A stretch of 64,000 nt of DNA, taken from NCBI RefSeq assembly GCF_900199215.1, contig NZ_FZQA01000005.1:124001-188000 (forward strand), read 5' to 3'. Below the pieces are notes generated by a model that was not told the DNA's origin, did no database searches, and worked only from the letters and a program-made list of their open reading frames with translations. The DNA is from Amphiplicatus metriothermophilus. GTDB taxonomy: Bacteria > Pseudomonadota > Alphaproteobacteria > Caulobacterales > Parvularculaceae. Shown here piece by piece: positions 826 through 11,958 of the stretch (positions are counted from its first letter, which is position 1; each line of letters opens with the position of its first letter). A program made the position numbers and the translations under genes.

Positions 826-1592
826 TGCTCGACTACAACCACCGCCCCACCTGCGCCGAACGCATCAATGCGGTGATCGACAAGGCGATCGCCGCTGAAC
901 GCGCGGCGGTTGCGCCCAGGACCTACCTCGGCGGCTCCCGCCTTGGACACGGCTGTGAGCGCGCTCTGCAATTCGAGTTCGCGGGTGCGCCGAAGGATGA
1001 GGGCCGGGAGTTCTCTGGCCAGACTCTGCGGATCTTCGAGATCGGACACGCGCTCGAAGATCTTGCCATCCGCTGGCTGCGCGGTGCCGGGTTCGATCTC
1101 TATACCCGCAAGGGCAACCGTCCAGATGGCGAGCAATTCGGCTTCTCGGTCGCTGGTGGCCGCATCCGCGGTCATGTCGATGGGATCATCGCCGCCGCAC
1201 CCCAGCTGCTGGGCATCGGCGTTCCCGCGCTCTGGGAATGCAAGACGATGAACGCCAGGAACTGGCGAAAGACCGTGGCCAAGGGCGTGGTTGTCGCGAA
1301 GCCCGTCTACGCGTCCCAGATCGCCCTCTACCAAGCCTATATGGAAGCGCAGGTCCCCGGCATCTCCGACAATCCCGCGCTCTTCACCGCCATCAACAAG
1401 GACACCGCCGAACTGCACCACGAACTCGTGCCGTTCGACGCGGGGCTCGCCCAACGCATGAGCGATCGCGCCGTGCGGATCCTTGAAGCGACGGATGCAG
1501 GGGATCTGCTGCCGCGCATCGCCACGACCCGTGACTTCCACGAGTGCCGAATGTGCCCGTGGGCGGAACGCTGCTGGGGGTTGCCGGCATGA
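825..1592 (+). CDS. PD-(D/E)XK nuclease, Cas4/RecB-like with probable Fe-S cluster
   Basis: A 255-residue phage nuclease. The RecB/Cas4 signature is visible in order: H76 in GHALEDLA, D119 in GHVDG, the E138-x-K140 pair in WECK, and Q165 in the QIALYQ motif. C44 together with C241, C244 and C250 (CRMCPWAERC) match the four-cysteine arrangement that binds a [4Fe-4S] cluster in Cas4/AddB-type nucleases. It probably processes DNA ends during phage recombination or replication. It overlaps DUF6511 by one base, and its stop overlaps the primase-helicase start (ATGA at 1589-1592). Nothing suggests a CRISPR adaptation role; no cas1, cas2 or array is present. Confidence 0.82.
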   Translation: MLDYNHRPTCAERINAVIDKAIAAERAAVAPRTYLGGSRLGHGCERALQFEFAGAPKDEGREFSGQTLRIFEIGHALEDLAIRWLRGAGFDLYTRKGNRPDGEQFGFSVAGGRIRGHVDGIIAAAPQLLGIGVPALWECKTMNARNWRKTVAKGVVVAKPVYASQIALYQAYMEAQVPGISDNPALFTAINKDTAELHHELVPFDAGLAQRMSDRAVRILEATDAGDLLPRIATTRDFHECRMCPWAERCWGLPA

Positions 1593-3877
1593 GCGGGAAC
1601 AAGGTCATCTCCCTCGATGCCTGGCGCGACTTCAACGACGCCGCGCCGCAGGCCGATCCGTTCGACATCGAGCCGGATCCAGAGCAGATCGCCGTCTTTC
1701 TCGACGTCGTCTTCGGTTACTGCGAGGGCTGGGTGCCCCTGCGCGGGTTTGTGGACAAGGGCCAAGGCATCGACGGCCGACCCCACAACGCCTGGATCGA
1801 GATCGACGACAGTTTGCTGGAGAAGGCGGTTTCCTTTGCCGGTTGGGCAGCACGCGAAGGGGCGGCCTTCTATGTGGTGCCGGGAACGGTCGCCGAGACC
1901 GGCAAGGCCAAGGCCGCCGATGTCCAGCAGATGCAGACGGTCCTGGTCGACCTCGACGCCGGAGACATCGTGGCCAAGCTTGACCACCTCGTCCGTCATC
2001 TCGGCGACCCGACACTGCTCGTCGAAAGTGGCGGCCGGACGCCGGACGGTCTCGACAAGCTGCATGTCTGGTGGCGCTTGAGCGAACCGGCCGAGGGCGA
2101 GGACATCGCGCTTCTCTGTCGGCTGCGCGGCGACATTGCGGTCAAGGTCGGCGGCGACACGCATTTCCGATCGGCCCACCAGCCGATCCGTCTGGCCGGC
2201 TCCGTCTATCACAAGGGCGGGTTCAAGCGGCTGGTCAACATCCGCCGCCACAGCCCCCGGACCGAGGTCCATCTGCGCGACTTCGCGGAAGCAGTCGCCG
2301 ACATGCCGCCGCTTGCCGGGGTCGGAACCGAGCCAGGCCCCTCGACCGACAAACCGTCGATCACCGATGTCCTGACGATGCCGGTCCGCGAAGGCGGATC
2401 GGACGATTGGACCCGCTTCCAGGGGGCGAGCGCCGCGATCGGCCACTACGTCCGCATGGCGCATGAGGGCCGCATGAGCCGCGACGACGCTTGGGAGGCG
2501 ATCTGCCAGTACAACGCCGCCCAGCTCCGTCCGAGCTGGCCGCTCGAACGTCTCGCCTCGGAAGCACAGCGCCTCTGGCGGCTTCATGAAGAGCGCCATG
2601 GGCCGGCCCTCGAAAGGATCGCCGTGCCGCCGATGTCCGCGCTTCCGGTTTTCACGCTCGGCGCACTGCTCGACGACGTGAGCCCGATGCCCGACGACAT
2701 CATCGCGCCGCGATTGCTGACGCCTGGCGGGATGCTGGTGCTCGGCGGCGCCCCCAAGGTCGGCAAGAGCGACTTCCTAATCAGTCTGCTTGTCCACATG
2801 GCGGCGGGGGTGCCCTTCCTCGGCTTTGCGCCAAGCCGGCCGCTTCGGATCTTCTATCTGCAGGCGGAGATCCAGTACCATTACCTCCGGGAGCGCCTTC
2901 AGGCCATCCGGATCGAGCCGGCGCTCCTGGCCGCGGCGCGCGATAATCTCGTCGCCACGCCGAAGGTCCGCATGCTGCTCGACGCCGGCGGCGTGGGCCT
3001 GACCATCGCCGCGGTTCGCGCCCACTACGGGCATGGCGCGCCCGACATCCTCTGCATCGACCCGATCCGCAATCTCTTCGATGGGGGTCCGGACGGCGGC
3101 GGGGAGAACGACAACACCGCGATGCTCTTCTTCCTGCAGGAGCGGGTCGAGGCCCTGCGGGACGCCGTAGCCCCGGATGCCGGCCTGATCCTCTGCCATC
3201 ACACCCGCAAGATCACGAAGAAGCAGCTCGTCGAGGACCCGTTCATGGCGCTCTCGGGCGCGGGCAGCCTCCGCAGCTTCTACACCTCCGGCGTGATCAT
3301 GCACCGGCCCGACGAGGACCGGCCGGAGCGGATGCTGCATTTCGAGCTTCGCAACGGTCCCGGCATCGAGCCGATGATCGTCGATAAGGCCGATGGCCGT
3401 TGGGTAGAAATCGACCGTTCCGGGGAGCGGATCGTGCGGCGCGAATTCGGCGAGAAGCTCGATGCCGAGCGCGTGCGCAAGCACGACGTCATCCTACAGC
3501 TACTCTTCGATGAGGCCGAAGCCGGCAGGCTCTACACGGCCCTGCAGTTCGCCGAGAGCTTCGAGAACCAGGCGGGGCTTGGCGGCAAGGATACGATCCG
3601 CGAGCGGATCAGCGTGCTGGCCACCAAGGGCTTCATCAAGTTCGTCCGGGACGGCGCACCGTTTGGCCTGCCGACCTCGCGCTCGAAGTTCGGCTATCTC
3701 TGCGTTGAGGGCATGACGTTCCCGACTGGAGAAGAGACGGCAGACCCCGACACCGGCGAGGTCGTGCCCGTCCGGGTCCAGGTCCTTCCCAGCACCTACA
3801 AATGCCCGCAGAGCGGCGCGGCGCTGCCGGTCGAGAACCCCCTGGTCTGGGTCTATCAGACGGAGGAGACCTCGTGA
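1589..3877 (+). CDS. Phage primase-helicase (RepB-like primase plus RepA/KaiC-like AAA ATPase)
   Basis: 762 residues from the ATG at 1589, chosen because it overlaps the preceding stop as ATGA; an upstream in-frame start at 1544 is less likely. The N-terminal third looks like the RepB/archaeo-eukaryotic primase fold: DLDAG at about 121-125, ESGGR at 146-150 and HVWWRL at 159-164. The middle carries a RepA-type hexameric helicase ATPase with Walker A GGAPKVGKS at 386-394 and Walker B-like ILCIDPIRN near 490. The C-terminal part may be a winged-helix-like region. The protein probably unwinds and primes phage DNA. The repeat region immediately downstream could be the origin it acts on, which is inference. 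Confidence 0.78.
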   Translation: MSGNKVISLDAWRDFNDAAPQADPFDIEPDPEQIAVFLDVVFGYCEGWVPLRGFVDKGQGIDGRPHNAWIEIDDSLLEKAVSFAGWAAREGAAFYVVPGTVAETGKAKAADVQQMQTVLVDLDAGDIVAKLDHLVRHLGDPTLLVESGGRTPDGLDKLHVWWRLSEPAEGEDIALLCRLRGDIAVKVGGDTHFRSAHQPIRLAGSVYHKGGFKRLVNIRRHSPRTEVHLRDFAEAVADMPPLAGVGTEPGPSTDKPSITDVLTMPVREGGSDDWTRFQGASAAIGHYVRMAHEGRMSRDDAWEAICQYNAAQLRPSWPLERLASEAQRLWRLHEERHGPALERIAVPPMSALPVFTLGALLDDVSPMPDDIIAPRLLTPGGMLVLGGAPKVGKSDFLISLLVHMAAGVPFLGFAPSRPLRIFYLQAEIQYHYLRERLQAIRIEPALLAAARDNLVATPKVRMLLDAGGVGLTIAAVRAHYGHGAPDILCIDPIRNLFDGGPDGGGENDNTAMLFFLQERVEALRDAVAPDAGLILCHHTRKITKKQLVEDPFMALSGAGSLRSFYTSGVIMHRPDEDRPERMLHFELRNGPGIEPMIVDKADGRWVEIDRSGERIVRREFGEKLDAERVRKHDVILQLLFDEAEAGRLYTALQFAESFENQAGLGGKDTIRERISVLATKGFIKFVRDGAPFGLPTSRSKFGYLCVEGMTFPTGEETADPDTGEVVPVRVQVLPSTYKCPQSGAALPVENPLVWVYQTEETS

Positions 3878-3916
3878 TGCGGCAGCTCATCCCGATTACG
3901 CGGGCTTACGCAGAAT

Positions 3917-4170
3917 CAAGTTGTGGCAAGTTGCGGCGAGCTGGGCGGCCAGCTTCCCAACTACTTTCGTCGCCTTTCGCGCCGCCGCGCTCCGCCCAGC
4001 CATCCCGCGCACATTCAAGTTGGGAAAGCTCGTCCCAACTACCTTGGCTCGCGCGCGCTCCGCTGCGCGGCCTTTCGCAGATTCAAGTTGGGAACGCGAC
4101 CCACGCCATGGGCCGTCCCAACTTCGATTTCTCCAAAAGATTCAACGCGTTGATGCGCTCTCGAAGTTGT
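3917..4170. repeat. Iteron-like repeats of an AAGTTGGGA core
   Basis: Visible copies: CAAGTTGTGG (3917-3926) directly followed by CAAGTTGCGG (3927-3936); CTTCCCAACTAC (3953-3964, inverted); ATTCAAGTTGGGAA (4013-4026); CGTCCCAACTAC (4031-4042, inverted); ATTCAAGTTGGGAA (4081-4094, exact 14-base copy, 68 bases after the first); CGTCCCAACTTCG (4114-4126, inverted); TCGAAGTTGTGG (4161-4172). Mixed direct and inverted copies recall an iteron origin or a multi-site operator. Confidence 0.6.
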
Positions 4171-4181
4171 GGGGGTGAAAG

Positions 4182-4240
4182 CCACCCCCTTCGGGGGTGG
4201 GGGAGAACCGCGCCGAGCGGGTTCTCCCACTCCCACCCCC
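4182..4240 (+). promoter_or_regulatory. Alternative G/C-rich hairpins upstream of the resolvase gene
   Basis: CCACCCCC (4182-4189) can pair with GGGGGTGG (4193-4200) across a TTC loop. The same GGGGGTGG can instead pair with CCACCCCC at 4233-4240, extending a second stem GGGAGAACC (4201-4209) / GGTTCTCCC (4220-4228) with a four-base bulge ACTC. The two folds exclude each other. No U-run follows, so a simple rho-independent terminator is unlikely. An attenuator, origin structure or small RNA are possibilities. Confidence 0.5.
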
Positions 4241-4311
4241 AGGGGCTTCGCGCGCGCGGTCGCCGTGCCGTCCAGCCCCTCACCGACATCAGACGAGAAG
4301 GACCCACCACC

Positions 4312-4845
4312 ATGAGCCAGTGCCCGTCACCCATCCCCAGGAGCGCGCCCCATCCGGCCCCGGTCATCGCGACATCCGCGGGCAGCGCCATTCTCGCCCT
4401 GGATCTCGGCACCACCACGGGCTGGGCGAGCCTGGCGGGCGGGATCGTGCACAGCGGAACCGCCAGCTTCCGCTCAGGCCGCTACGACGGCGGCGGCATG
4501 CGGTACCTGCGTTTCCAGCACTGGCTTGGCCAGTTGGCGAACGACTGTGGCGGCCTGGCCTCGGTCTACTTCGAGGAGGTCCGGCGACATGTCGGCACTG
4601 ATGCCGCACATCTCTACGGCGGTTTCCTGGCGACGTTGACCGCTTGGTGCGAGCGTCAGGGCGTCGCCTATCAGGGCGTTCCTGTCGGCACCATCAAACG
4701 CTTCGCCACGGGCAAGGGCAACGCCGGCAAGGATGCCGTGCTCGCCGCGATGCGCCAGCGCGGGTTCCAACCCGCCGACGACAACGAGGCCGACGCAATC
4801 GCGATCCTGCTCTGGGCGATGGAGACCCGAGGAGGTGTGCTGTGA
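4312..4845 (+). CDS. RuvC-like crossover junction endodeoxyribonuclease
   Basis: 177 residues from the ATG at 4312, which follows a purine-rich GAGAAGGA element about 10 bases upstream. RNase H-fold signature: D31 in ALDLGTTTGW, an acidic FEEVRRH strand in the middle, and a C-terminal KGNAGKDAVLAAM...DDNEADAIAI block with the last acidic residues. This matches phage RuvC-type Holliday junction or branched-DNA resolvases, which clear branched DNA before packaging. The gene is followed by a GTG start overlapping its stop (GTGA at 4842-4845). The much longer open frame starting at 3802 is rejected because its extra N-terminus overlaps the primase-helicase gene and the repeat region. Confidence 0.8.
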   Translation: MSQCPSPIPRSAPHPAPVIATSAGSAILALDLGTTTGWASLAGGIVHSGTASFRSGRYDGGGMRYLRFQHWLGQLANDCGGLASVYFEEVRRHVGTDAAHLYGGFLATLTAWCERQGVAYQGVPVGTIKRFATGKGNAGKDAVLAAMRQRGFQPADDNEADAIAILLWAMETRGGVL

Positions 4846-5802: not shown

Positions 5803-5842
5803 ACCACAGGTGTCCACTTCGATCCACGGACCCATCCGACCC

Positions 5843-7168
5843 ATGACGCTGAGCTTCGCCCCCGAGCGGATCGAGACCTGGCCGCTTGCGCGCCTCCAGC
5901 CCTACGCCAAGAACGCGAAGGTGCACGGCGCGGACCAGGTCGCCAAGATTGCCGCCAGCATGGCCGAGTTCGGCTGGACCGTGCCCTGCCTCGTGGCCGA
6001 GGACGGGGAGCTGATCGCAGGCCATGGGCGCGTGCTTGCCGCGACGCAGCTGGGGCTGACGGAGGCACCGGTGATCGTGCTCGGTCATCTGACCGAGGCG
6101 CAGCGCCGGGCCTACCGCATCGCGGACAACAAGCTGACGGAACTCGGAAGCTGGGACGAGGCGTTGCTGTCCGCCGAGCTGCAGGGACTGCTGGCCGAGG
6201 ACTTCGATCTGTCGCTGGTCGGATTCTCCGACGGCGAACTCGACAAGCTCCTCGCGCTCGATCCGGACGCGGACGATGAAGACGGCGGGGTTGGCGGCTC
6301 GGTGCCGCCCGTGACCATCCCCGAGCCGCCGCGCAATCCGGCCTCGCGCACGGGCGATCTATGGATCCTCGGCGATCACCGGCTGCTCTGCGGCGACAGC
6401 ACCAGCCACGACGATGTGCGCCGCCTGATGAACGGCGAGCGGGCGATCCTGTTCGCGACCGACCCGCCGTATCTCGTCGACTACGACGGCTCGAACCACC
6501 CGACCCGCAACAAGGATTGGTCCGCGTCCTATGGCACGACTTGGGACGACAGCAGCCAAGGGGCGGAACTCTACGACGGCTTCATCGCCGCCGCCGTCGC
6601 CGAGGCCATTACCGACGATGCCGCCTGGTACTGCTGGCACGCCTCGCGCCGACAGGCGATGCTCGAGGCCTGCTGGGAAAAGGCCGGGGCCTTCGTCCAC
6701 CAGCAGATCATCTGGGTGAAGGACCGCGGCGTCCTGACCCGCTCCCATTACCTCTGGAAGCACGAGCCCTGCTTCATGGGCTGGCGCCGCCCCAACCGCC
6801 CGCCGAAGGTGGCCGAGCAGACGCTGCCCTCGACCTGGGAAATGCCCAGCTTCGCCAAGGACGAGCGGCCCGACCATCCGACCCCGAAACCGCTCGACGC
6901 CTTCGGCATCCCGATGCGCCAGCATGTGGCGCGCGGCGGGCTGTGCTACGAGCCGTTCTCGGGCTCCGGCTCGCAGATCATGGCGGGCGAGGCCAATGGC
7001 CGCCGCGTCTTCGCGATGGAGATCAGCCCGGCCTATGTCGATGTCGCCGTCGAACGCTGGCAGGCAGACACGGGGCGCGAGGCGATCCTCGATGGCGATG
7101 GCCGGAGCTTCGCAGCCGTAAGGGCCGAGCGGCTGGGCGAGGACACAAACACCGACGCTGCCGCCTGA
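5843..7168 (+). CDS. ParB-like domain fused to DNA (N6-adenine or N4-cytosine) methyltransferase
   Basis: 441 residues from the ATG at 5843; a GTG at 5810 would add 11 residues. The N-terminal ParB/Srx-type domain has GELIAGHGRVLAA at about 55-67 and a following ADNKLTELG helix. The C-terminal methyltransferase has motif IV DPPY at 207-210 before motif I FSGSG near 375, the beta-class order. It modifies DNA bases by transfer from S-adenosylmethionine. Such fusions are common in alphaproteobacterial prophages as orphan enzymes without a partner nuclease, probably shielding phage DNA. Its stop overlaps the cytosine methyltransferase start (TGATG at 7166-7170), so both are translated together. 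Confidence 0.88.
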   Translation: MTLSFAPERIETWPLARLQPYAKNAKVHGADQVAKIAASMAEFGWTVPCLVAEDGELIAGHGRVLAATQLGLTEAPVIVLGHLTEAQRRAYRIADNKLTELGSWDEALLSAELQGLLAEDFDLSLVGFSDGELDKLLALDPDADDEDGGVGGSVPPVTIPEPPRNPASRTGDLWILGDHRLLCGDSTSHDDVRRLMNGERAILFATDPPYLVDYDGSNHPTRNKDWSASYGTTWDDSSQGAELYDGFIAAAVAEAITDDAAWYCWHASRRQAMLEACWEKAGAFVHQQIIWVKDRGVLTRSHYLWKHEPCFMGWRRPNRPPKVAEQTLPSTWEMPSFAKDERPDHPTPKPLDAFGIPMRQHVARGGLCYEPFSGSGSQIMAGEANGRRVFAMEISPAYVDVAVERWQADTGREAILDGDGRSFAAVRAERLGEDTNTDAAA

Positions 7169-9446: not shown

Positions 9447-10007
9447 ATGCAAGGCATGAGCGAGCGCCAGTACGCCTCCCATGTCGGACTGTCGCGCGGC
9501 GCAATCCAAAAGGCGAAGACTGCCGAGCGGCTGGTCCTCCATGAGGATGGCAGCATCGACGCAGAGGCGAGCGATGCACGCCGGGCGGCAATGACGGACC
9601 CGTCCAAGACCCGGAAACCGCCCGCGCCGAAGCTGAAGCCTGTCCCCGACGCGGCCGTGTCCGCCGTTGGTGACACTCTACGGGAACAAGGGCTTGCCGC
9701 GCCACCCGTCGGCAGCGGCACGACCTTCCTGCAGGCCAAAACCGCGAATGAGGTGCTGAAGGCCCAGGAGCGGCGCATCCGGCTTCAGAAGCTCAAGGGA
9801 GAACTCGTCGACCGCGCCCGGGCGGTTGCGGTCGTGTTCCGGCTGGCACGCGAGGAGCGTGATGCCTGGGTGAACTGGCCGGCGCGCGCGGCGGCGCTGA
9901 TGGCGGCCGAACTCGGCGTGGAGGCGGCCGCCATGCAGAAGGCCTTGGAGAAACATGTACGCGCCCACCTCGACGAACTCGCCGAGGTCCGGCCCGAATT
10001 CCGATGA
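9447..10007 (+). CDS. Phage terminase small subunit-like protein
   Basis: 186 residues. The N-terminus MSERQYASHVGLSRGAIQKAK is a helix-turn-helix resembling the DNA-binding part of Nu1-type small terminases. The middle is a Pro/Lys-rich linker, and the C-terminal half is a long charged helix (LKAQERRIRLQKLKGELVDRARAVAVVF) with LAREERDAWVNWPAR. It would recognise the phage packaging site and recruit the large subunit. It is directly followed, with a 53-base overlap, by the large terminase. The assignment rests on the N-terminal motif and position. Start choice between M1 and M4 is uncertain. Confidence 0.75.
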   Translation: MQGMSERQYASHVGLSRGAIQKAKTAERLVLHEDGSIDAEASDARRAAMTDPSKTRKPPAPKLKPVPDAAVSAVGDTLREQGLAAPPVGSGTTFLQAKTANEVLKAQERRIRLQKLKGELVDRARAVAVVFRLAREERDAWVNWPARAAALMAAELGVEAAAMQKALEKHVRAHLDELAEVRPEFR

Positions 10008-11958
10008 TAAAGATGGCCTGAGGGATTTCGAAGGCGCGGCTGAGATCCTGCGCGCCTGGGGCAACGGGATCCGACCGGATCCCGACCTCACTGTCTCGGA
10101 ATGGGCGGACCGGCACCGGATGTTGGCGTCCCGCGCTTCGGCCGAACCGGGGCGCTACCGCACAATGCGAACGCCCTACATGCGGGAGATCATGGACCGG
10201 CTGTCGCCCGGCGACGCGGCGCAACGGATCGTGTTCATGAAGGCCGCGCAGGTCGGGGCGACGGAAGCCGGCAACAACTGGATCGGCTTCGCCATCCACC
10301 AGGCGCCGGGCCCCATGCTCGCGGTCCAGCCGACCGTGGAACTGGCCAAGCGCAACTCGCGCCAGCGGATCGACCCGCTTATAGACGAGAGCCCCGAGCT
10401 GCGCGAGCGGGTGAAGCCCGCGCGGTCGCGCGATGCCGGCAACACGATGCTGTCCAAGGAATTCGCGGGCGGCATACTGATCATGACCGGCGCGAACTCG
10501 GCGGTCGGGCTGCGCTCGACCCCGGCGCGCTACATCTTCCTCGATGAGGTCGATGCCTATCCGGCCTCGGCCGACGAGGAAGGCGACCCGGTGACCTTGG
10601 CTGAGGCACGGTCGCTGACCTTCGCCCACCGGCGCAAGGTATTCCTGGTCTCGACCCCGACGGTCCGTGGGCTCTCCCGGATCGAGCGGGAATTCGAGGC
10701 GTCCGACCAGCGGCGCTACTTCGTGCCGTGCCCGCATTGCGGGGCGATGCAGTGGATGAAGTTCGATCGGCTGCGCTGGCAGAAGGGCAAGCCGGAGACG
10801 GCGGAGTATCTCTGCGAGAGCTGCGATCAACCCATCGCGGAGCACCACAAGACGGCGATGCTGGGGCGCGGCGAATGGCGGGCGACCGCTGTCGCCGCTG
10901 ATCCCACGACGGTCGGCTACCACCTCTCGGCGCTCTATTCGCCTGTCGGCTGGCTCAGCTGGTCACGGATTGTGCGCAGCTGGGAGGCGGCGCAAGGCTC
11001 CGACGAGGCGATCAAGGCGTTCCGCAACACCATTCTCGGCGAGACATGGGTCGAAACCGGCGAGGCGCCGGACTGGCAGCGGCTCTACGATCGACGAGAG
11101 GCGTGGCGGCCAGGCACGGTGCCAGCGGGCGGGCTGTTCCTGACTGCGGGCGCGGATGTCCAGAAGGACCGGATCGAGGTCGATGTCTGGGCCTGGGGCC
11201 GAGGGCTTGAGAGCTGGCTCGTCGATCACGTCGTGCTCGAGGGCGGGCCGGATCGGCATGACGCTTGGGACCAGTTGACGGAACTCCTGGACCGGTCGTG
11301 GCCACATGAAAACGGCGCGCACCTTCGGATCGCGCGGCTCGCCATCGACACGGGCTACGAAGCCCCGGCCGTCTACGCCTGGTCGCGCAAAGTCGGCTTC
11401 GCGCAGGTCGCGCCGGTCAAGGGTCTCGAAGGCTTCAATCGCTCTAGTCCGGTCTCCGGCCCCACCTTCGTCGATGCGACCGAGGGCGGGAAACGCCTGC
11501 GCCGCGGCGCCCGGCTCTGGACGGTGGCGGTCTCGACCTTCAAGGCCGAAACCTACCGCTTCCTGCGGCTGGAGCGCCCGACGGCCGAGGAACGTGACGA
11601 GGGCGCGGCGTTCCCGCCCGGCACGATCCACCTGCCGACATGGGTCGAGAGCGAGTGGCTGAAGCAGGTCGTGGCTGAGCAGCTTGTGACGGTGCGCACG
11701 AAGCGTGGCTTCGCGAAGCTCGAATGGCAGAAGCTGCGCGAGCGCAACGAGGCGCTCGATTGCCGGGTCTACGCCCGCGCGGCCGCCTGGATCGCGGGCG
11801 CCGACCGCTGGCCCGAAGAGAAATGGCGCGACCTCGAGGACCAGCTCGGGGCGACGCCCACCGACAGCGATCCCGCCGGGCAGATCCACAGGCCGGGACA
11901 GATAACCCAAGGCAAGCGCCGTTCTGACTGGATCGGGCGGCGGGAAGGATGGTTCTGA
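9955..11958 (+). CDS. Phage terminase large subunit (GpA family)
   Basis: 667 residues; ATPase plus nuclease that packages phage DNA into the prohead. The GpA-type deviant Walker A KAAQVGATE sits at 96-104, Walker B IFLDEVD at about 194-200, and a coupling segment VFLVSTPT at about 229-236. A four-cysteine zinc site CPHC (259-262) ... CESC (287-290) is typical of GpA. The nuclease half has AGADVQKDRIEVDVWAWGRG and LAIDTGYE. The start at 9955 overlaps the small subunit by 53 bases; the first 20 residues are not conserved-looking, so the true start may be a little downstream. gpW follows after one base. Confidence 0.92.
   Translation: MYAPTSTNSPRSGPNSDDKDGLRDFEGAAEILRAWGNGIRPDPDLTVSEWADRHRMLASRASAEPGRYRTMRTPYMREIMDRLSPGDAAQRIVFMKAAQVGATEAGNNWIGFAIHQAPGPMLAVQPTVELAKRNSRQRIDPLIDESPELRERVKPARSRDAGNTMLSKEFAGGILIMTGANSAVGLRSTPARYIFLDEVDAYPASADEEGDPVTLAEARSLTFAHRRKVFLVSTPTVRGLSRIEREFEASDQRRYFVPCPHCGAMQWMKFDRLRWQKGKPETAEYLCESCDQPIAEHHKTAMLGRGEWRATAVAADPTTVGYHLSALYSPVGWLSWSRIVRSWEAAQGSDEAIKAFRNTILGETWVETGEAPDWQRLYDRREAWRPGTVPAGGLFLTAGADVQKDRIEVDVWAWGRGLESWLVDHVVLEGGPDRHDAWDQLTELLDRSWPHENGAHLRIARLAIDTGYEAPAVYAWSRKVGFAQVAPVKGLEGFNRSSPVSGPTFVDATEGGKRLRRGARLWTVAVSTFKAETYRFLRLERPTAEERDEGAAFPPGTIHLPTWVESEWLKQVVAEQLVTVRTKRGFAKLEWQKLRERNEALDCRVYARAAAWIAGADRWPEEKWRDLEDQLGATPTDSDPAGQIHRPGQITQGKRRSDWIGRREGWF

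Follow-up and report, generated by a model that had tools for sequence, protein, structure and literature searches.

The repeat array between rep and ruvC

What purpose is served by the gap that follows the primase-helicase gene in a prophage of Amphiplicatus metriothermophilus, and which protein reads the repeats within it? The gap was studied in a window of 64,000 nucleotides (nt), the whole stretch of DNA analysed (contig NZ_FZQA01000005.1, positions 124,001 to 188,000). It measures 434 nt and separates the primase-helicase gene, here called rep (1589-3877, plus strand), from a RuvC-like resolvase gene (4312-4845, plus strand); judged by eye from the list of open reading frames it is, as the first-pass annotation had stated, the sole gap of such size in the early region. 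That annotation had placed at least eight near-copies of one motif between these two genes and had likened them to the iterons of a phage origin. With a probability of about 0.80 we propose that the array is the replication origin of the prophage, and that the C-terminal winged helix of the prophage's own Rep protein binds the inverted half-sites of the array as iterons.

Eight half-sites with the consensus (A)AGTTGNG were found in both orientations at 3918-4172, between the intact rep gene, whose stop codon lies about 40 nt from the first of them, and the RuvC-like gene. Half-sites 1 (AAGTTGTGG, 3918-3926) and 2 (AAGTTGCGG, 3928-3936) are on the plus strand and half-site 3 (TAGTTGGGA, 3955-3963) is on the minus strand. 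Half-site 4 (AAGTTGGGA, 4017-4025, plus) has half-site 5 (TAGTTGGGA, 4033-4041, minus) as its inverted partner, and half-site 6 (AAGTTGGGA, 4085-4093, plus), 68 base pairs (bp) from half-site 4, is partnered by half-site 7 (AAGTTGGGA, 4116-4124, minus). The final copy is half-site 8 (AAGTTGTGG, 4164-4172, plus). The array is composed of two exact inverted pairs, a looser third pair with arms 31 bp apart, and the terminal half-site.

The pair of exact 14-mers described earlier was recovered: ATTCAAGTTGGGAA occurs at 4013-4026 and 4081-4094 with a spacing of 68, two matches where 0.00 are expected in 64 kb. The 8-mer AGTTGGGA, counted on either strand, is present five times in the 330 nt past the rep stop codon, which was equalled by none of 300 dinucleotide shuffles. 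With at most one mismatch, AAGTTGGGA gave eight matches in the whole window, a number not beyond chance (mean 5.68; at least eight in 19 of 100 shuffles); five of the eight are clustered within 3955-4124. The inverted pattern AGTTGGGA-N4-30-TCCCAACT was found at two places only in the 3.16-Mb assembly, both inside the array. What is typical of an iteron origin, an array of short repeats that adjoins the initiator gene and exceeds chance expectation, is present at this locus. As two GC-rich hairpins follow the array, to about position 4240, the element is longer than first noted. A blastn search with positions 3700-4500 against phage records gave no match.

Domain composition of Rep

Rep comprises 762 residues, read from an ATG start without internal stop, and matches AAA_25 (1.3e-18), phrog_13004 and phrog_239. 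The AlphaFold model begins with an archaeo-eukaryotic primase (AEP)-like domain and a helical part (residues 258-337), followed by a RecA-like domain and, at the C-terminus, a winged helix that has extra strands; for the full-length protein the mean predicted local distance difference test score (pLDDT) was 75 and the predicted template modelling score 0.39, and the placement of the domains relative to each other is unreliable. The AEP primase domain (residues about 30-240; 1676-2308, plus strand) was matched by Foldseek to the S-2L PrimPol (6zp9, 1.1e-8) and to RepB' of RSF1010 (3h20, 3.6e-8), and Pfam RepB_primase matched weakly in 3 of 41 members (best 0.012). AAA_25 is present in 41 of 41 members in the RecA-like helicase domain (residues about 350-541; 2636-3211, plus strand), for which RSF1010 RepA (1olo, 2.8e-5) appeared among many RecA/Rad51 entries in Foldseek. 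D121, D123, H197 and G392-K393-S394, which we take to be candidate catalytic residues, are invariant across 41 sequences.

The C-terminal winged-helix domain (residues about 618-706; 3440-3706, plus strand) was obtained from an AlphaFold2 model of the C-terminus (mean pLDDT 85). The Foldseek matches listed for this model were mostly winged-helix proteins by title, with middling scores; none had E <=0.001, and the origin-binding domain of P4 alpha was not among the matches listed. Weak Pfam matches of the C-terminal part were to LexA (8 of 40 members) and Penicillinase_R (3 of 40). On these models Rep resembles by fold RepB' and RepA of RSF1010 joined in one chain, with a winged helix in addition. 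By tblastn, partial and mostly helicase-level matches to Rep were found in 17 phage records, nine of which are of Wolbachia phage, and matches in five plasmid records included one near-full match (Shinella, 68%). In the Wolbachia phage records (H1-H9), identity at the best places amounts to 42-53% over Rep residues of about 352-610, the helicase part only.

Repeat classes in related prophages

Of 597 confirmed matches in a first viral scan 80 were kept, and of 321 in a genome scan likewise 80; 79 of the 80 record titles in the latter name what we take to be Alphaproteobacteria, and one names a Thermoanaerobaculia bin (L156). Within the host family no close Rep was found beyond the window's own, the three of 62 genomes with E <=0.001 being its own and two weak ones. 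The resulting 161 sequences gave 153 usable intergenic regions and 152 intact Rep proteins, both being available for 150 loci; L036, L062 and L111, without intact Rep, were dropped.

In the nearest relatives, half-sites identical to these recur past rep with unchanged spacing; in others, among which overall Rep identity reaches 88%, a different repeat takes the same layout. Conservation of the repeats in related prophages, proposed earlier as a check on the origin, was thus observed for the layout and not for the repeat sequence, which changes among classes. Absence of the repeats from close relatives had been named as evidence against an origin. It occurs in the literal sense only: relatives without AAGTTGGGA, whose Rep is 82-88% identical overall (in part loci L017-L035), have another repeat in the same place and a Rep C-terminus changed to match.

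The 150 loci were divided into class A (AGTTGGGA; 61 loci), class B (CAGATTGGG and CCGAAACT; 48), class E (ACTCAT/ATGAGT; 29), class D (GAGGAGTT; 5), class F (2) and classes C1, C2, G and H (one each), one locus being unassigned. These classes were set by regular expressions composed after sight of the first arrays and then corrected by eye (L048 and L114 out of A, L140 into B); arrays initially without class were read by eye and placed in E, D, F, G, H or C2. Four further viral scans gave a later set of 282 loci, 251 with Rep and array, in which 105 arrays were new by sequence, many of them close to the first set, and six more repeat types (I to N) appeared. Seventeen new arrays belong to classes outside the first set and were left unscored; 88 were scored. 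In all, about 15 classes of repeat can be told apart, found mainly in prophages of Alphaproteobacteria, a count that depends on where lines are drawn, since G, I and J are mutually alike and A, B, D and E are alike in part.

Some loci depart from the common arrangement. The repeats of classes D and E (L078, L137, L069) extend into the 3' end of rep, where the palindromic repeat encodes part of the final residues of Rep (e.g. ...LTHMSEA in class E). In L036 and L111 (the latter from Rhodobacter sp. YIM 73028) the match to Rep is limited to residues 64-703 and the array is missing; the sequence past the match resembles, by eye, a DUF6362 gene that lies farther downstream in the window. The wing end and the array seem to have been lost together. 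Two loci were noticed in each of four assemblies, of the classes A/A (L006/L070, whose co-residence was inferred from a shared IMG number), A/A (L093/L110), B/B (L144/L160) and B/E (L123/L159).

Co-variation of array class with the Rep C-terminus

Mutual information with class A or B is low over Rep residues 1-600 and higher over 601-762. Over 107 loci its mean was 0.054 bit for residues 1-600, 0.200 for residues 615-757 and 0.074 for RuvC. On trees of 133 nonredundant loci (for RuvC, of those with RuvC), class A/B changes by parsimony 11 times on the Rep 1-600 tree, 13 times on the RuvC tree and once on the Rep 615-757 tree; for all classes the numbers are 24, 27 and 10, respectively. When pairs with an N-terminal identity of at least 0.90 were compared, C-terminal identity had a mean of 0.95 and a minimum of 0.79 in the 1666 pairs of the same class, against a mean of 0.69 and a maximum of 0.81 in the 282 pairs of different classes. 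At residue 747, which was chosen from the same data, seven independent pairs on supported branches of the N-terminal tree comprised six concordant, none opposite and one without difference (p 0.031); the N-terminal control residue 344 mostly showed no difference in independent pairs.

The class of the new arrays was then read from the nearest neighbour in the first set. Residues 686-757 named it correctly for 88 of 88 arrays (a single first-set member underlies the 21 right calls of class G), residues 615-757 for 87, residues 615-685 for 76 and residues 1-600 for 58. For the 83 new arrays with RuvC, the right class was given 83 times by the wing segment, 56 times by RuvC and 54 times by the N-terminal part. 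The segment that tracks the array class best is the wing with the C-terminal extension (residues 686-762; 3644-3874, plus strand). The predicted recognition helix, too, starts differently in the more distant classes, with KD in most members of A and B, KH in most of D and E, NA in C1 and C2, QS in F and G, and SD in H. These comparisons indicate that array class follows the C-terminal winged-helix segment of Rep, and neither its first 600 residues nor RuvC.

Probable natural recombinants

In one pair of loci, L070 (class A) and L140 (class B), 18 successive 30-nt windows are identical, ending at about codon 683. Beyond this point the wing, the C-terminal extension and the array all differ, as does the sequence downstream of the array. 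Helix 2 of L070 retains class-B-like residues. From this one pair the A/B difference would map to residues of about 686-762.

Three further A/B pairs (L030/L039, L067/L140 and L066/L072) diverge in the Rep C-terminus and array and are homologous on either side of them, for 4.0-6.1 kb on the upstream side and no less than 0.7 kb on the downstream side (80-89% identity). The BLAST alignments end 205-214 nt before the rep stop and resume 211-269 nt after it, and the break coincides with the variable wing; in 30-nt windows identity starts to fall as early as about -450 to -360, so that the upstream edges are not sharp. For L095/L017 and L058/L022 the alignments end within 22 nt of the rep stop and resume at +287 and +269, respectively.

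AT-richer core, IHF-like sites and hairpins

The candidate unwinding region is an AT-richer core at 4125-4163, between half-sites 7 and 8. In 43 loci the 10-nt bins from -70 to -41 before the loop of hairpin 1 had a mean AT fraction of 0.56-0.67, and of the 13 bins upstream 12 had 0.33-0.50 and one had 0.55; the enrichment of the core is relative only. The core contains a site resembling that of integration host factor (IHF), ATTCAACGCGTTG (4140-4152, plus strand), with one mismatch to WATCAANNNNTTR, which we take as the IHF consensus. Among class E arrays 25 of 27 contain the exact consensus, and so do 5 of 5 in class D; some of these arrays carry two sites. If up to one mismatch is allowed, it was found in 29 of 54 class A arrays, where 4.7 are expected, and in 8 of 41 class B arrays, where 3.0 are expected (related loci are included in all these counts). 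Some classes have a clear site for a bending protein; in the class A array of the window the site is weak. Four genes of the HU/IHF family are present in the host.

Hairpin P1, CCACCCCC-TTC-GGGGGTGG, is at 4182-4200 and hairpin P2, GGGAGAACC...GGTTCTCCC, at 4201-4228, with an imperfect extension of its arms to 4195 and 4234 (both plus strand). RNAalifold, applied to a MAFFT alignment of the hairpin region, recovered P1 only; P2 was therefore counted by a direct search for stems. P1 was present in 121 of 133 loci, which were selected by its presence and of which 43 are nonredundant. A stem of at least 7 bp, varying in sequence, was found at the place of P2 in 43 of these 43 loci, against 17.5 expected from a plain shuffle of the downstream letters; any such stem was accepted, and in a few loci (e.g. 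L045, L071, L114) it is possibly another one. Folding is strong, with z -4.27 for RNA (3900-4260) and z -4.80 for DNA (hairpin part). No Rfam family reached its gathering score within 3501-4600, the best being a chance-level match to P2 sRNA (22.1 bits vs 80). P1 and P2 share one arm that can pair either way (4182-4240), and this arrangement is kept while the letters differ between classes. The shared arm is a possible switch or primase start site.

Neighbouring genes

The window carries a tailed-phage prophage, with an exonuclease-like gene upstream of rep and terminase, portal, head and tail genes farther on. The RuvC-like resolvase downstream of the array (phrog_159, 5.2e-27) does not track the array class. 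A DNA methyltransferase with a ParB-like N-terminal part is encoded at 5810-7168 (phrog_498, phrog_620). Read upstream from ruvC, its frame stays open across the whole array as far as the rep stop (3876-4845 in the window) in 60 of the 93 class A/B loci with RuvC placed, and in 59 of these 60 an in-frame start codon overlaps that stop. The only class G locus has the open frame as well; those loci of classes C, D, E, F and H that were examined lack it. A protein encoded in the class A/B arrays was rejected: the frame is often open, but the array substitutions are without codon-position bias, so that the frame, if translated, is a passive leader. A pac site was considered in thought only; the large terminase gene is located at 9955-11958.

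Weighing of the explanations

The earlier reading of the array as an iteron origin has strong support, though of an indirect kind, in the conserved layout beside rep, the IHF-type sites in some classes, the AT-richer core and the close co-variation of the repeat with the Rep C-terminus. Several observations weigh against it. The chief reservation is that the Rep C-terminus and the array are adjacent, so that linkage adds to their co-variation. A sharp break at the wing is seen in L070/L140 alone, and in two of the six pairs BLAST aligns nearly to the rep stop (within 22 nt); the probability given above was set lower on this account, a sharp upstream edge of the exchanged block being confined to a single pair. 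The match to the IHF consensus is weak in both class A and class B, and GC skew has no clear switch at the array. The 8-mer count fails to show an excess in two loci with more variable half-sites, L017 of class B, which 263 of 300 shuffles equalled, and L078 of class E (234 of 300); in L052 the excess is marginal (8 of 300). Nineteen of the 105 new arrays were labelled by eye, two of them among the 88 scored, and the sole nearest-neighbour miss by residues 615-757 was L367. The same class co-resides in three of the four assemblies noticed with two copies; same-class prophages coexist and hence no strict incompatibility is seen.

The co-variation could also arise by hitch-hiking, if recombination at conserved flanks swapped a variable block and another protein read the array. 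The block forms one unbroken stretch, and in most pairs its upstream edge is unsharp. However, in the three pairs with homologous flanks on both sides the Rep C-terminus is the obvious coding part of the block, and the wing residues named the class of all 88 scored arrays; on these comparisons of rep, ruvC and their flanks, another reader is very unlikely. If Rep itself is the reader, the array might still be an operator, by which Rep would repress or time its own operon or ruvC while replication begins elsewhere. The winged-helix fold resembles that of transcription repressors, the array sits between genes on the same strand, and initiators of iteron origins often autoregulate. We regard this as unlikely, as the array is downstream of rep and not at the rep promoter, the AT-richer core with its IHF-type site gives an origin-like layout, and the presumed binder belongs to a primase-helicase. 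The strong folding and the excess of stems at the place of P2 would fit a third explanation, in which the array works as structured RNA or as single-stranded DNA hairpins in the rep-ruvC transcript and not as protein sites. Yet the half-sites of one locus, including unpaired direct copies, switch jointly between classes, as expected for one trans-acting reader; moreover, the arms of the third pair are 31 bp apart and no Rfam family was matched at gathering score. For the array this explanation is highly improbable; hairpins P1 and P2 may be RNA elements.

A replication origin read by the winged helix of Rep is the explanation we prefer. From the sequence patterns and the fold resemblance observed, we infer the following course of binding, melting and priming. 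Several Rep C-termini would bind the inverted half-sites, as their co-variation suggests. The core site could then be occupied by an IHF/HU-family bending protein, which together with the flanking half-sites would open the AT-richer core. The RecA-like domain may assemble as a helicase in the manner of RSF1010 RepA, which it resembles in fold, and the AEP domain would prime, perhaps at the two adjoining hairpins, as RepB' does at ssi sites. With AEP, RecA-like and winged-helix domains fused, one chain would do the job of the IncQ proteins RepA, RepB' and RepC. Joint exchange of the Rep C-terminus and the array, the pattern seen between loci, would occur by recombination and give rise to many origin specificities.

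Comparison with known replication systems

The best reading is that the predicted origin would work like that of phage P4 alpha or an IncQ replicon. In P4 alpha the origin-binding domain is C-terminal and the helicase belongs to SF3. Rep is like P4 alpha with its ori/crr in having primase, helicase and winged-helix domain in a single chain. They differ in that P4 alpha has a TOPRIM primase and an SF3 helicase, whereas Rep has an AEP fold (best 6zp9, RepB') and an AAA_25/RecA-like domain. The winged helix of alpha binds origin repeats, and its primase is of the TOPRIM type (PMC4234260). The IncQ plasmid RSF1010 (RepA, RepB', RepC, ssiA/ssiB) shares with Rep the folds of a RepB'-type primase and a RepA-type helicase. 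It also bears iterons and is primed at stem-loops (PMC4234260, PMC4434180), which are paralleled here by the two candidate hairpins adjoining the array. In RSF1010, however, three separate proteins are employed; here there is one chain of 762 residues, with inverted half-sites of about 9 bp.

A further parallel is the PrimQH architecture of PrimPol-PV1 primases, which consists of a primase, a PriCT-type helical part, a P-loop ATPase (of RepA type in some) and a C-terminal winged helix (Kazlauskas 2018, PMC5862659). Rep has the same order as PrimPol-PV1 PrimQH, its helical part being judged from predicted helices only. It was suggested that the winged helix of PrimPol-PV1 may recognise the origin (Kazlauskas 2018, PMC5862659); a word count of that text gave no 'iterons'. 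In PrimPol-PV1 InversePrim, PriCT-1 precedes the primase. In the Rep model the helical part (residues 258-337), a candidate PriCT-like region, comes after it.

Exchange of specificity has precedents. In the phage-inducible chromosomal island-like elements (PLE), which are satellites, the part of the initiator that binds DNA co-varies with the origin, the two being exchanged as a module, and the cognate pairing was demonstrated by experiment (PMC8263062). In this the PLE RepA/ori system is like the one described here; it differs in that its initiator is of the unrelated RepA_N family, that it belongs to a satellite and that two allele groups are described in the accessible part. The pri-rep-ori region of Escherichia coli phage-inducible chromosomal islands has four Pri-Rep variants (PMC6092414); these are also satellites, and co-variation of winged helix and iterons is not described in the accessible part. 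In Gordonia phages, recombination exchanges the winged-helix part of the replication initiator (PMC10684548). There the exchanged part is N-terminal and, in the accessible part of that paper, has no linked origin sequence, whereas in Rep it is C-terminal and co-varies with the array.

Such co-variation, known by experiment for PLE satellites, and origin recognition, proposed for the PrimPol-PV1 winged helix, are already in the literature, as far as these sources go. New are the replicon family itself, how many specificities it comprises, and the natural pairs, which indicate where in Rep specificity lies. A literature search found no paper on this replicon, most subscription journals being outside its coverage.

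Tentatively, these elements might be seen as a one-protein IncQ-like replicon of alphaproteobacterial temperate phages, split into at least about 15 specificities that are kept apart like immunity types. The wing and C-terminus would move with the iterons as a cassette, leaving primase, helicase and both priming hairpins in place. The driver could be interference when phages co-infect, or else enemies targeting the origin, as in PLE satellites. A probable replication origin, and the protein that probably reads it, can now be assigned to a large group of prophages. The matched pairs of winged helix and iterons form a natural series that could allow a recognition code to be derived; it includes two near-identical Rep proteins whose sole differences begin at the wing. 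Origin-initiator pairs of differing specificity are possible vectors for Alphaproteobacteria and might be tested as such.
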